Origin: a cyanobacterium endosymbiont of Rhopalodia gibberula
GTDB lineage: Bacteria; Cyanobacteriota; Cyanobacteriia; Cyanobacteriales; Microcystaceae
Assembly (NCBI RefSeq): GCF_003574135.1
Contig: NZ_AP018341.1
Location: 1,612,001 to 1,676,000 of the forward strand
Direction: 5' to 3'
DNA length: 64,000 nucleotides
Below the pieces are notes generated by a model that had not been told where the DNA came from, did no database searches, and saw only the letters and a program-made list of their open reading frames with translations. Numbering within the stretch: position 1 is the first letter of the stretch; each line of letters opens with the position of its first letter. A program made the translations under genes and the position numbers. Below, in pieces: positions 8,407-43,440 of the stretch.

Positions 8407-9366
8407 TTAGGAATGTACAGAAAGGATTTCTAATAACAAACATTCCCAAACTAATTGAGATTGTACATAACTCAAAAGATAGAGACGAGATTTTTCTAAA
8501 ATTTCTAATAATTTTCTATTTTTGAATCTTGTCCAATAATAATATTGCAGATATTTAACTAACCATAGTTGAGTTTGAATATCTAATTTTTCAACAATAA
8601 TTTTTGACAATTCTAATACTTCTATTTGATTAGAAGGTATTTTTTTGATTCTTTGATATAAGTCTTTTGGGATATTCTGTAATTGCTTACTAGCGATAAT
8701 TGCTTCTCCTGGACTTCCTTGAGCGAAAGATATTATCTCTAAATCTTGAACAATTTCTTTATTTCCTTGCTCGTTTAAAACCTTGATTAAATCTTCATAA
8801 GATAGACTATAAAAAGGAATTTTCTGACAACGAGATACTAAAGTTGGGATAAGCTCATCTGTACGAAGAGCTAACAGGATTAAAGTAGCTTTTCCTGGTT
8901 CTTCTAAAGTTTTTAATAATCCATTAGCAGCTGCTTCTGTCATAGTTTGAGCATCTTCAATAATGACTAGAGCTCGAGAGGCTTCTAAGGGGAGACGGTA
9001 AAGAAACCTGGTAACTTCTCTAATTTGCTCAATTCGAATTTGTGGAGGAACTTTGCGGGTTATTCCTAAATTTTTAGCTTCTTGAAGTGTAATTAATCGA
9101 CCTTGATATTGATAAGTTGGTTCTACCCACAATAAATCGGGATGATTTCTTTCTCTGATGCGTTTTTGAACTAATAATTGTTGTTTAGGAGGAATATTGA
9201 GGCAGAGCAAAGCTTCGCTGAAACATTTAGCCCCTAAACTACGTCCAACACCAACGGGACCGGTAAACAGGTATGCTGGAGCAATCCGGTTTTTAGCGAT
9301 TACTTGTTCTAACAATTCAACGGCTTGAGGCTGTCCAATTAGTTGCTGAAAAGGATTGATACTCAT
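8407..9366 (-). CDS. holB: DNA polymerase III delta-prime subunit
   Basis: A clamp-loader subunit of the AAA+ family, acting with gamma/tau and delta to load the beta clamp (dnaN is also in this window). Visible features are a P-loop-like GPVGVGRS near residue 38, with arginine in place of the usual lysine as is common in non-ATPase delta-prime subunits. There is also an acidic motif IIEDAQTM, the run EAAANGLLKTLEEP, and the SRC motif (VSRCQKIPF) whose arginine serves neighbouring subunits. An upstream in-frame ATG (9381) would add MPVIL. I prefer ATG 9366 because MSINPFQQLIGQ matches the usual N-terminus. Length is about 319 residues, normal for cyanobacteria. It is divergent from the small gene at 9423 with only 56 bp between them. 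Confidence 0.88.
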   Translation of the reverse strand: MSINPFQQLIGQPQAVELLEQVIAKNRIAPAYLFTGPVGVGRSLGAKCFSEALLCLNIPPKQQLLVQKRIRERNHPDLLWVEPTYQYQGRLITLQEAKNLGITRKVPPQIRIEQIREVTRFLYRLPLEASRALVIIEDAQTMTEAAANGLLKTLEEPGKATLILLALRTDELIPTLVSRCQKIPFYSLSYEDLIKVLNEQGNKEIVQDLEIISFAQGSPGEAIIASKQLQNIPKDLYQRIKKIPSNQIEVLELSKIIVEKLDIQTQLWLVKYLQYYYWTRFKNRKLLEILEKSRLYLLSYVQSQLVWECLLLEILSVHS

Positions 9367-35305: not shown

Positions 35306-36085
35306 ATGGATATTAAACGACTTTCTGCCCTACGTAACAACTATATTTTTGTGCTTCATAATCCTACTGATCACACTACAGCTGTAGTTGATCCAGCTGA
35401 GGCGACTCCTGTTTTGCGATGTTTGGATGAGCTAGAAGCTCAACTAGTAGCTATTTTTAATACCCATCATCATTATGACCATGTTGGGGCGAATAATATT
35501 CTAATTGAAAAGTTTCCTAACCTTTGTGTCTATGGAGGGGTAGAAGATAGGGGAAGAATTCCTCACCAACAGGTATTCTTGAAAGAAGGTGATCGCGTTG
35601 AATTTGCTAACCGAGTGGGAGAAGTTTTCTTCGTCCCTGGACATACTCGCGCTCATATTGCTTACTATTTTTTCCCAGAATCAGCTCAAGACACCGGAGA
35701 ATTGTTCTGTGGCGATACTTTATTCTCGGGAGGATGCGGACGATTGTTTGAAGGTAATCCAGCACAAATGGTTAATTCATTAGATAAGTTACGGAATTTA
35801 CCCGATAAAACTCGTGTGTGGTGCGCTCACGAATATACTTTAGAAAATCTTCAATTTGCAGTAACAGTTGATCCTGATAATGCACTCTTAAAAAAGAGAT
35901 TTAATCAAGTTAAAAAACTCCGTCAACAACGACAAGCAACTGTTCCTTTTTTATTAGGAGAAGAAAAACAAACTAACCCCTTTTTGCGATGGGATAGTAT
36001 TAGTTTGCAATCAATAGCAGGTGTGAGAAAACCGGAACAAGTTTTTAGTAAAATTCGAGCTATGAAAGATAATTTTTATAAATAG
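35306..36085 (+). CDS. gloB: Hydroxyacylglutathione hydrolase (glyoxalase II)
   Basis: A cytosolic metallo-beta-lactamase-fold enzyme that hydrolyses S-lactoylglutathione to lactate and glutathione, the second step of methylglyoxal removal. The metal motif NTHHHYDHVGAN is at about residues 51-62. Further ligands are in VPGHTRAHIAYYF, FCGDTLFSGGCGRLFEG and CAHEYTLENL. The C-terminal substrate-binding helices end with the typical NPFLRWD. Length 259 is normal. No clear ribosome binding site precedes the ATG. A 20-bp perfect inverted repeat begins 20 bases after the stop. Confidence 0.93.
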   Translation: MDIKRLSALRNNYIFVLHNPTDHTTAVVDPAEATPVLRCLDELEAQLVAIFNTHHHYDHVGANNILIEKFPNLCVYGGVEDRGRIPHQQVFLKEGDRVEFANRVGEVFFVPGHTRAHIAYYFFPESAQDTGELFCGDTLFSGGCGRLFEGNPAQMVNSLDKLRNLPDKTRVWCAHEYTLENLQFAVTVDPDNALLKKRFNQVKKLRQQRQATVPFLLGEEKQTNPFLRWDSISLQSIAGVRKPEQVFSKIRAMKDNFYK

Positions 36086-36104
36086 AATTATGCTTATTCA
36101 AGCA

Positions 36105-36150
36105 ATAACTATCAAATAGTTTAATATTTGTTAAACTATTTGATAGTTAT
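36105..36150. repeat. Perfect 20-bp inverted repeat just downstream of gloB
   Basis: ATAACTATCAAATAGTTTAA (36105-36124) and its exact reverse complement (36131-36150) flank a 6-base loop, TATTTG. The stem is AT-rich and not followed by a T-tract. It may be a 3'-end stabilising hairpin, a terminator variant or the relic of a miniature mobile element. Confidence 0.85.
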
Positions 36151-36708
36151 AAACTAATCGTAATTAATTCATTACATAAGTAATGTTGTCTATTTTTGCT
36201 ATTTTAAATAGTTCCATACAGAGAGACTAATAAATTTTTGCGAATGAACAACCTAGCCTGATAAAATTTTTGTTACCAAACTACCAACATGGCTTGAGTA
36301 GCAATACATGATGTAATATCTGTAGATTTTGTGCTAGTCTTATAAGTCTACGGCGATAATTAAACCCTAATTCTTAAATATACCTTTCTAAACTTTACTA
36401 ACGTTCGTCATAAACATGCAAGTCAGCAAGATATACTGGGCTTTGACTATTCGTTGCATAGGTCGTTGCATAGGTTTTTTTAAAAAAAATTGCGTTCATC
36501 ATCGTTTACTAACGACATAGTGAATATTAAGTTTTAATAAAAATTAACTATGTCGTTTAATAAAATCTACAATGTTTGTAACAGCAATTGCTCTTACAAC
36601 TGCCTAATTAAAATTCATATCTTCAACAATTATTTTGCTATTTAGTTGCAATATCTCTTTAACCTCTTCTCAGGTAACTTAATTACCAAATTTAGTTGTT
36701 TCTATGGT

Positions 36709-36739
36709 TTTGTCACACCCCTAGTAGGGGTGTGACAAA
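36709..36739. repeat. 31-bp perfect palindrome between convergent gloB and sir
   Basis: TTTGTCACACCCCTA (36709-36723) is the exact reverse complement of 36725-36739, with a single central G. The stem is much richer in G+C than its surroundings. It lies in the convergent spacer but lacks a T-tract on either side, so a standard bidirectional terminator is not clearly supported. Confidence 0.85.
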
Positions 36740-36944
36740 GAACTTGTTAGTTAGCATTATCTTGAGAAGTATATCTCATAGTTATTAAACTTAGACAGAA
36801 ACTAACTTCGTGAATTTGTAAGCTAGATCGTTTATCTATAGCATTTTTGGGTGATTATGAAATATGGCAGAATCAATTTATAAATCAATCCCACCAGTAC
36901 AATTGGAGTATAAGTTTTGTAATTTAATCTTCTATCTTTATTGA

Positions 36945-38858
36945 CTACGATTTTTCTTGACTAAAATAAGTCTCTAATGCTTCATGAACAATCTGATTCA
37001 TCGGTCGTTTGTCTGTTTCTGATACAGCTTTAAGTTGAACAAACATCTCATCAGAAATACTTACCCGATGTTGATTTTTGCGAATACGACGCGGTTTTAT
37101 AGGCTTATAAGTTTTACTAAACTCTCTTAGAGACTCAAAGCCGACTCGACGACAAAATTGACCAAAACTTTCTTGTTCTATCTTCTCTTGCTTAAAATAG
37201 ACAAATAGAGGCTCTAAAAATTTTTCTATGTCTTTGTCAAGTAGTTTCTGGAGGTAAGGTTCAGCTAAGTTAGTTTGATTAGGACTTCCCCCTAACCAAA
37301 TTTGGTAGGTGTTTGGCGCACTTCCTACAAATCCCAGTTCAGCCATGTAGGGACGGGCGCAACCGTTGGGACATCCAGTCATCCGAATTACAATTTTCTC
37401 TGATGCCATGTCTAATTTAGATAAAACTGTTTTAATCCGCTCAATGATCCCAGGTAGGACGCGTTCTGATTCAGTAATAGCTAACCCGCAAGTTGGTAAA
37501 GCTGGACAGGCTATCGAATAACGGGTCAAATCATCAATTTCTTGAGGATTAGTAATTACACCACAATCTTGTAAAATCTTTTCAATCGCCTCTTGATGAC
37601 TAGGCTCAATCTCATAGAGAATAACGTTGTGGTTAGCTGTTAACCGCATAGGTAAACTAAATTGTTCGGTGATACGGCGTAGAGCGGTTTTGAGTCGTAA
37701 GTTTCCTTCGTCTTTCACTCGACCATTTTCAATCGAAATTCCCAGGAACAACTGACCATCTCCCTGTTCATTCCAGCCTAAAAAGTCTTTATATTTCCAT
37801 TTAGGAAGTGTTTTAAAAGGATATAGAGACTTACCAAAGTATTCTTCAACTTTAGCGCGGAATTTTTCTACTCCCCAGTCATTAATCAGATATTTCATGC
37901 GGGCGTGACGACGTTGAACTCGATCGCCGTAATCCCGTTGAGTGGCAACAATAGCCTTTAATACGTCATAAACATCTTCTTTAGCTACATAACCGATGGG
38001 GTCAGCTATCCTTGCAAAGGTTTCTTCCTTGTTATGGGTGCGTCCCATGCCACCCCCTACAAGGATGTTAAATCCTTGTAAGGTTCCCTTGTTGTCCGTC
38101 ATCACTACTAAACTGACATCATGGGTATAGACATCGATGGAATTATCTCCTGGAACAGTGACACTACATTTAAATTTACGGGGCATATAATGTTCCCCAT
38201 AAATAGGTTCCTCTTTGCCAGCAAAAATGGCTTTATTGGTATTGCATTGACGGGCAGCCACCACTTCGGGGGACTCTTCCACACTGAGAAATTTTTCTCC
38301 ATCAAGCCAAATCTCATAATAGGCTTCAGTTTGGGGTCTGAGCAAATCAGCGATTTTATCAGCATATTCCCAGGTGTATTGGTACTCAGGGCGATTTTTA
38401 AACGGTGCAGGAGGAGCCATAACGTTGCGGTTTAGGTCTCCACAAGCTCCAAGGGTTGATCCCATGTTTTTTACAATTGCTGACACTGCTGCTTTGAGAT
38501 TTTTCTTCAAAATACCATGAACTTGAAATCCCTGGCGTGTTGTCACCCGTAAGGTATGGTTTCCATATTCATCACTAAGGCGATCAAGAGTTAGATAAAG
38601 TTCAGGTGGGACAAACCCTCCAGGATTGCGAGTCCGCAACATCATTTGATAATCTTTTTCTTGTCCTTTAACTCTATTATCTCGGTTATCCTGTTGATAA
38701 GATCCATGAAATTTAAGAATTTGAACAGCATTTTCCGTAAAATGAGTTGTCTCTTCTAAAAGTTCTGTAGCTAGAGGTTCTCTTAGAAAGTTACTCTTCT
38801 CCTTAATTGCTTCTATCTTAGATATTTGCCTGGTGGGTGAAACTGAAGTATTGACCAT
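36945..38858 (-). CDS. sir: Ferredoxin-sulfite reductase
   Basis: This assimilatory enzyme reduces sulfite to sulfide with six electrons from ferredoxin, using siroheme and a [4Fe-4S] cluster. Cluster cysteines are in [17 protein letters not shown] and [17 protein letters not shown]. The N-terminal half shows [20 protein letters not shown] and the siroheme-binding [16 protein letters not shown]. Length is 637 residues. The last 50 residues (from about 588) read like a ribbon-helix-helix module, with [20 protein letters not shown]. The gene is divergent from aroC across 374 bp. Its retention implies that the organism still makes its own cysteine sulfur. Confidence 0.92.
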
Positions 38859-42660: not shown

Positions 42661-43440
42661 ATGTTACCCAGAGAAAAATTATTAAAAGGAATTAAAAATC
42701 GAGAAGCGATTACTCGTATTCTTGAGCAAGCGGAAATAGCCTTAAAAACTTGGGAAATCGTAGTCAGTGACTTTCTTTGTCCTCCTGTTATAGCTGAAGT
42801 TCAAGAATTGTTTCAAAGATTGACTGAAGTTGAAATTGTGGTGTGGGGAGGTTATCCTCAAGCAGAACGGCAACGAGTCGGTATAGCTCGTTCGGAAATT
42901 TCTTTAGACATCTCGGAGATTCCACTAGCCGCTCTGTGTATTGCCGGAAACTTTTTATTTGATCCTGCTAACCATCAAGATTTCTTAGGGGCAATTTCAG
43001 GAGCAGGGATCGTCCGCGAACAGGTTGGGGATATTTTAGTGCCAGGAGAGCGGGGGGCGCAGGTAATAGTGGTACCTGAACAAGCTAAATTTCTTGAAAC
43101 TTCGCTTGTTCAGGTACGTTCAGTTCCGGTGAAAACCAAATTAATAACATTGAGTGAATTAAAAATACATCCTCCCAAAACTAAGAAAATGACCACCGTA
43201 GAAGCGTCTATGCGCTTAGATGCAATCGCCTCAGCAGGTTTTGGAATGTCTCGTAGTAAAATGGCTAATTCAATTAATTCGGGAGATGTACGAGTTAATT
43301 GGAAAGACATTACTCAGGCAAGCCATATTGTTGAATCTGGGGATTTAATCACCGTTCGAGGTAAAGGACGTTTAGAAGTTGGGGAAGTTGCTATTACTAA
43401 AAAACAACGTTATCGGATTCAAATAACCAGATTTAAATAG
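42661..43440 (+). CDS. Photosystem II S4-domain RNA-binding protein (YlmH-like)
   Basis: A 259-residue protein with an N-terminal YlmH-type domain (VIVWGGYPQAERQR-like region near residue 60, read as IVVWGGYPQAERQRVGIARS) and a C-terminal S4 RNA-binding domain (about 180-250; MRLDAIASAGFGMSRSKMAN, INSGDVRVNW, ITVRGKGRLEVGEV). Cyanobacterial members are named photosystem II S4-domain proteins from their link with PSII function. YlmH relatives bind ribosomal RNA or rescue stalled ribosomes. It is intact although chlorophyll synthesis has decayed, suggesting that its essential role is in translation rather than photosynthesis (inference). Confidence 0.87.
   Translation: MLPREKLLKGIKNREAITRILEQAEIALKTWEIVVSDFLCPPVIAEVQELFQRLTEVEIVVWGGYPQAERQRVGIARSEISLDISEIPLAALCIAGNFLFDPANHQDFLGAISGAGIVREQVGDILVPGERGAQVIVVPEQAKFLETSLVQVRSVPVKTKLITLSELKIHPPKTKKMTTVEASMRLDAIASAGFGMSRSKMANSINSGDVRVNWKDITQASHIVESGDLITVRGKGRLEVGEVAITKKQRYRIQITRFK

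Follow-up and report, generated by a model that had tools for sequence, protein, structure and literature searches.

A 31-base perfect palindrome at a deletion junction in the genome of the Rhopalodia gibberula spheroid body, a probable scar of replication template switching

The stretch analysed here (64,000 nucleotides, hereafter the window) belongs to the genome of the Rhopalodia gibberula spheroid body (RgSB; contig NZ_AP018341.1, positions 1,612,001 to 1,676,000), and contains a gloB-like gene and a sir gene that converge on a common spacer (Table 1). Both names had been proposed in a first-pass annotation made from the letters alone, and both are backed by Pfam (HAGH_C and Lactamase_B for the former, NIR_SIR and NIR_SIR_ferr for the latter). 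The spacer carries a palindrome at 36709-36739, 624 nt beyond the gloB stop and 206 nt beyond that of sir, which reads TTTGTCACACCCCTA-G-TAGGGGTGTGACAAA. The first-pass annotation had described it as a perfect palindrome of 31 bases that was unlikely to have arisen by chance, and our analysis confirms the description: the arms are complementary at 15 of 15 positions around a single central G, with G or C at 7 of the 15 bases of each arm, in a window of 35.5% GC. Folded as RNA, the 40 nt from 36705 to 36744 reach -24.1 kcal/mol, a stability equalled by none of 200 shuffled sequences, and the 141-nt stretch 36660-36800, considered as a possible larger structured RNA, gives a fold z of -3.5, with a centroid structure that retains a 7-bp outer stem. 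We defined a perfect hairpin as one with arms of at least 15 nt and a loop of at most 16 nt; such hairpins numbered 0.00 on average in first-order Markov versions of the window (n = 3) and 0.0 in third-order Markov versions of 464 kb of RgSB (n = 2). A chance origin of the palindrome is therefore rejected, in line with the earlier claim.

The main genomes used for comparison were those of the Epithemia turgida spheroid body (EtSB), of a close relative whose kinship and composition lead us to regard it as a spheroid body (G001), of uoEpiScrs1 (G004), of what is apparently the MAG UBA12306 (G005), and of PCC 8801, which is free-living.

Table 1. Features of the gloB-sir spacer and its neighbours (positions in the window).
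Feature	Coordinates	Strand	Details
gloB-like hydroxyacylglutathione hydrolase, left neighbour	35306..36085	+	ORF of 259 aa; Pfam HAGH_C, Lactamase_B
Deletion junction	36708..36740		In both relatives (EtSB, G001) the flank alignments reach the palindrome on either side, with 0 nt between
Left arm, read as the ancestral (template) arm	36709..36723	+	Gap-free against EtSB at 11/15, continuous with the flank (35/40)
CTAG, self-complementary tetramer, putative first switch point	36721..36724		CTAG at the aligned place in G001 (after a 2-nt gap)
Right arm, interpreted as copied in reverse complement from the left arm	36725..36739	+	Inner 8 nt match the relatives poorly
TGACAAA, putative return microhomology	36733..36739	+	7/7 against the right flank in G001, 5/7 against EtSB
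sir, ferredoxin-type sulfite reductase, right neighbour	36945..38858	-	ORF of 637 aa; Pfam NIR_SIR, NIR_SIR_ferr; 94% identical to EtSB

The palindrome had also been judged not to be a standard terminator, and this too is borne out, since no T-tract follows it on either strand and a terminator scan of 35900-37100, which reported three other sites, made no call there. An Rfam search of the window at the gathering score returned one tRNA as its sole match, and hence no known RNA family at the palindrome. A functional RNA hairpin, serving as a bidirectional terminator or as a 3'-end stabiliser common to the gloB and sir transcripts, would suit the convergent spacer and the stable fold, and in its GC-containing stem the palindrome does resemble an intrinsic (rho-independent) terminator; it differs, however, in having no U-tract, in lying far from both stops and in being absent from EtSB and G001, where no conserved pairing is seen near the stop codon. 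The distances are also at odds with the peak at 50-80 bp after stop codons that is reported for bacterial perfect repeats (PMC13155455). On these grounds we regard an RNA function as unlikely, although so stable a hairpin may in the meantime have acquired an influence on transcripts that reach it.

A second perfect hairpin lies in the same spacer at 36105-36150, about 20 nt past the gloB stop, with AT-rich arms of 20 bp and a loop of 6 nt. In the gap that matches it, the best perfect hairpin in G001 measures 12 bp and differs in sequence, and EtSB has none of at least 9 bp.

Most of the window aligns collinearly with both EtSB and G001. Between the same flanks, G001 has 909 bp and EtSB 924 bp where RgSB has 31 bp, and the difference in length falls exactly at the palindrome. 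The longer segment is about 75% identical between G001 and EtSB, and stops are found across all six of its frames. Part of it resembles a 157-aa ORF (L117:16-489) located directly downstream of sir in G005, for which Pfam gave matches below cut-off only; this ORF is decayed in EtSB and G001 and gone from RgSB. On another contig of G005, a 149-aa ORF resembles the stretch that spans the right breakpoint. The presence of similar ORFs in G005, including one adjacent to sir, makes a loss in RgSB the more economical direction of change, and the alignments suggest that the segment is most readily explained as old, decayed gene DNA now missing from RgSB. The gloB-sir gap of G004 is only about 420 nt long and has no match to the lost segment at that place, so that two of the four spheroid-body-type genomes are without it; the absence in G004 presumably represents a separate loss.

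The two arms of the palindrome relate differently to this ancestral DNA. The left arm is collinear with EtSB: taken with the central G, it aligns without gaps at 12 of 16 positions, and the collinear place is its best match within the whole EtSB segment. A match of 11/15 does arise by chance among some 900 positions (the right arm gets one at an unrelated place in G001) and is weak when taken alone, and the homology of the left arm therefore rests on its gap-free continuity with the flank. The right arm, read onward from the left, agrees with EtSB at 4 of 15 positions, and its inner 8 nt are dissimilar to both relatives (2/8 for EtSB and 3/8 for G001). At the place of the CTAG tetramer EtSB reads TTAG, followed within 3 nt by CTAGCTAG. 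Three marks of template switching are thus found at the junction: one homologous arm beside one copied arm, by a margin that is modest since the arms are short; a switch back at a microhomology, the TGACAAA shared with G001; and a derived state in one lineage, both G001 and EtSB keeping the longer state with the palindrome absent, and G004 also being without the segment.

We consider it probable that a single replication template switch, or a deletion and then such a switch, left the palindrome as a scar in decaying non-coding DNA of RgSB. The growing strand would have copied the left arm as far as CTAG or thereabouts, would then have turned back on itself or moved over to the sister strand and copied the left arm in reverse, and would finally have re-annealed at TGACAAA some 880 bp further on; the same step would yield the perfect hairpin and remove most of the recognisable remains of two dead genes. 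A different order, with the deletion first and a later correction of a weak inverted repeat, would fit equally well. The order of the steps, the strand and the point of the switch are what we infer from the junction, as is the absence of a selected function. The template-switch reading is favoured by the abundance of lineage-specific perfect hairpins in this and related genomes, considered below. Against it stand the chance-level occurrence of 11/15 matches elsewhere, the lack of the segment in G004, an asymmetry between arms that is not universal among those hairpins, the imperfect counterparts that some of them keep, the absence of any tested repair loss that would explain their excess, and the amplification of the RgSB DNA before sequencing.

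Template switching has been described as a source of perfect hairpin stems (PMC8794818), and the stems treated there resemble the RgSB palindrome: one arm copies the neighbouring ancestral arm in reverse complement, pairing is perfect, the loop is tiny and the structure arises in one lineage. They are unlike it in two respects, as the return point in RgSB lies about 880 bp downstream, so that a large deletion accompanies the hairpin, and the DNA concerned is that of a bacterial endosymbiont rather than of RNA genes. In E. coli, a template-switch mutation associated with quasipalindromes has been described (PMC7202029), and there too an inverted repeat is made perfect by copying of the nascent strand; a difference is that the relatives of RgSB show no strong prior quasipalindrome at this place, just a short TTTGTCA/TGACAAA-like pair with about 900 bp between its members.

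An imperfect hairpin at 36511-36557, with the ends AACGACATAGT and ACTATGTCGTT, adjoins a place where about 42-44 bp are deleted, as judged against both EtSB and G001. It was considered as a further template switch, rejected and left uncounted, a deletion and one substitution being sufficient. At 43072-43117 the window has a near-perfect inverted repeat (22 nt, 91%) whose EtSB version is perfect over 19 bp; G001 keeps the right arm at 19 of 19 positions and the left at 14 of 19, which from the alignment looks like a quasipalindrome correction.

The palindrome is a single-copy sequence. A 13-base arm with at most one mismatch has no second copy in the RgSB genome, the 25-base core with at most two mismatches is found in none of 290 further genomes from the order, which were sampled from a larger group, and searches of phage and plasmid collections gave no match. 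Outside RgSB, the 15-base arm with one mismatch gave 14 matches in 58 genomes, which is the level of chance, the reversed control giving 15. A 10-mer common to the arms was found in just one of the 496 pairs formed by 32 RgSB hairpins. A repeat family, MITE or REP element is therefore rejected, the sequence being single-copy, the phage and plasmid collections blank and the hairpins without a common motif. The first-pass annotation had proposed such a copy search, taking a lack of copies and absence from relatives to favour a chance or one-off structure, and by that measure the palindrome is a one-off structure. Its suggestions of a regulator site or of the end of a miniature or mobile element gain no support, for the reasons that follow.

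As a remnant of a mobile element, the palindrome would represent a MITE, or terminal inverted repeats that fused after loss of the interior, the parent ending in TTTGTCACACCCC. Its perfect inverted arms with nearly no spacer could be read in this way, and 22 decayed IS elements are reported for RgSB (PMC5638926); REP repeats (PMC3733652) and MITEs are likewise extragenic palindromes of 20-40 bp. Unlike these, however, the RgSB palindrome exists in one copy and has no motif in common with the other sampled hairpins, its arm matches other genomes no better than the reversed control does, and no flanking direct repeat is seen by eye (ATGGT before, GAACT after), hence no target-site duplication. 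The relatives carry decayed gene DNA at this place, and what RgSB is missing resembles a relative's genes and not an insertion. We hold this origin to be very improbable. A binding site of a dimeric regulator would account for the perfect dyad symmetry, yet a convergent spacer is upstream of neither neighbouring gene, and the sequence is unique in the genome and absent from the relatives. The arms read TCACA...TGTGA, the reverse order of the CRP consensus, which also counts against a regulator site, and the probability that we would give it is close to nil.

Perfect hairpins are numerous in RgSB and in related genomes: RgSB has 32 in 464 kb, G001 has 52 in 447 kb and EtSB 87 in 500 kb, while G004, G013 and PCC 8801, each examined over 400 kb, have 45, 26 and 5. 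The density is thus 65-174 per Mb in five known or presumed endosymbiont genomes versus 12 in PCC 8801, the single free-living genome compared. Mirror repeats, used as a control for composition, were nearly absent (one each in EtSB and PCC 8801; none in RgSB, G001, G004 or G013), and the only Markov control that departed from zero was that of G013, with a mean of 0.33 over three first-order versions against the 26 observed. Per Mb of non-coding DNA, the figures are 146 for RgSB and 44 for PCC 8801, or about 109 and 11 for arms of at least 18; because the excess is smaller when counted per non-coding base, part of it is explained by more neutral DNA.

The hairpins avoid coding sequence. None of the 32 in RgSB lies inside an ORF of at least 150 aa, where 16.8 were expected, and the corresponding counts are 1 of 52 in G001, 3 of 87 in EtSB, 3 of 45 in G004, 1 of 26 in G013 and 1 of 5 in PCC 8801; with ORFs of at least 100 aa, 1 of 29 hairpins of an RgSB sample was inside an ORF. 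This bears on the possibility of an amplification or assembly artefact, in which a phi29 inverted chimera with a deletion would have entered the consensus. Amplification chimeras can resemble an inverted joint with an intervening deletion. The methods given in PMC5638926 include REPLI-g amplification of RgSB DNA before MiSeq sequencing, but also a bulk fraction, S1 debranching and a closed chromosome. Moreover, an artefact would ignore genes; the avoidance of coding DNA therefore argues against it as a general cause, and for the palindrome we think it quite unlikely.

The position of hairpins relative to genes was compared with expectation in a rough test, in which genes were taken as plain ORFs of at least 100 aa and hairpins not between two called ORFs were left out (10 of 29 in the RgSB sample and 11 of 72 in the EtSB sample). 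The observed/expected numbers of hairpins lying no more than 100 nt from the 3' end of a gene were 1/2.0 in the RgSB sample, 1/0.3 in the window, 1/1.1 in G001, 0/1.1 and 9/5.8 in EtSB, 2/1.0 in PCC 8801 and 13/7.0 in G013. The enrichment of long hairpins in G013 is what an RNA function would lead one to expect, but the counts in the RgSB sample and in G001 are near expectation and speak against it here. A possible conserved terminator, and a contrast to the palindrome, is the RgSB hairpin at L136:18940-18991, whose G001 counterpart is paired though both arms have changed, and is followed by a T-run.

The hairpins also turn over between relatives. In a survey limited to perfect hairpins, and to those with both flanks in the fetched stretches (which left out 9 of 32 in RgSB and 22 of 52 in G001), 21 of the 23 testable RgSB hairpins had no perfect hairpin of at least 14 bp at the orthologous place in G001, and 2 had one; some of the 21 keep an imperfect counterpart there (L147 8945, L151 11447). 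Conversely, for 6 of the 30 flanked G001 hairpins the RgSB gap contained some perfect hairpin of at least 13 bp, and just one of these (K 5194) was judged by eye to be the same hairpin. Many hairpins of these genomes are thus lineage-specific.

The clearest example of a copied arm is a 25-bp perfect hairpin of G001 (K 8484-8538, L230), in which the right arm matches RgSB at 20 of 25 positions and the left at 10 of 25; here the left arm replaces RgSB-like sequence. The hairpin at H 441, with arm matches of 17/19 and 13/19, shows the pattern plainly as well. Over 21 scored hairpins, the better arm showed a mean of 0.21 edits per nt, the worse arm 0.31 and shuffled arms 0.36; hairpins in which a flank was displaced by over 30 nt were left out, as was one of the remaining 22 whose gap was too short. 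Four hairpins (A 13915, D 9982, K 17833, L147 18729) show no asymmetry, both arms being equally, and well, diverged. The palindrome itself falls outside the 21, as its flank match in the survey lies 245 nt away, and its tight alignment was made separately.

We considered loss of a repair nuclease as the cause of the hairpin excess. SbcD and RecJ were above cut-off in all 10 genomes searched and SbcC in 8 of the 10; in the other two, G013 and G021, SbcC is below the curated cut-off, yet both have full-length open frames. XseA, the large subunit of exonuclease VII, had no match at E <= 0.001 in nine of the 10 genomes (G000, which is RgSB, G001, G003, which is EtSB, G004, G006, which is PCC 8801, G008, G012, G013 and G021), and is present in G002. 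As SbcD, SbcC and RecJ are present and XseA is also missing in PCC 8801, loss of any of these four nucleases is rejected as an explanation.

The palindrome alone is an ordinary scar. The mechanism is already known, and what is of mild interest is how many such scars there are. The highest frequency of inverted repeats has been reported in Buchnera (PMC10434271), and an excess of inverted repeats in endosymbionts is therefore not new as such; among the matches listed in our literature search, none dealt with template-switch hairpins in spheroid bodies or UCYN-A. It is conceivable, though we advance it with more doubt than confidence, that the genomes of the nitrogen-fixing endosymbionts of diatoms (and of haptophytes, if G013 is UCYN-A), as they shrink, undergo or tolerate template switching to an unusual degree, this process leaving the 65-174 long perfect hairpins per Mb and sometimes deleting dead genes at once, which would make it a countable route of genome reduction. 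Before a hairpin in such non-coding DNA is called a terminator or a regulatory RNA, additional proof should be required. As a class, these hairpins suggest that in genomes evolving towards organelles the non-coding DNA preserves a record of template switches, and where a perfect hairpin is tied to the loss of pseudogene DNA, as it is here, a deletion mechanism of genome reduction becomes testable across close strains.
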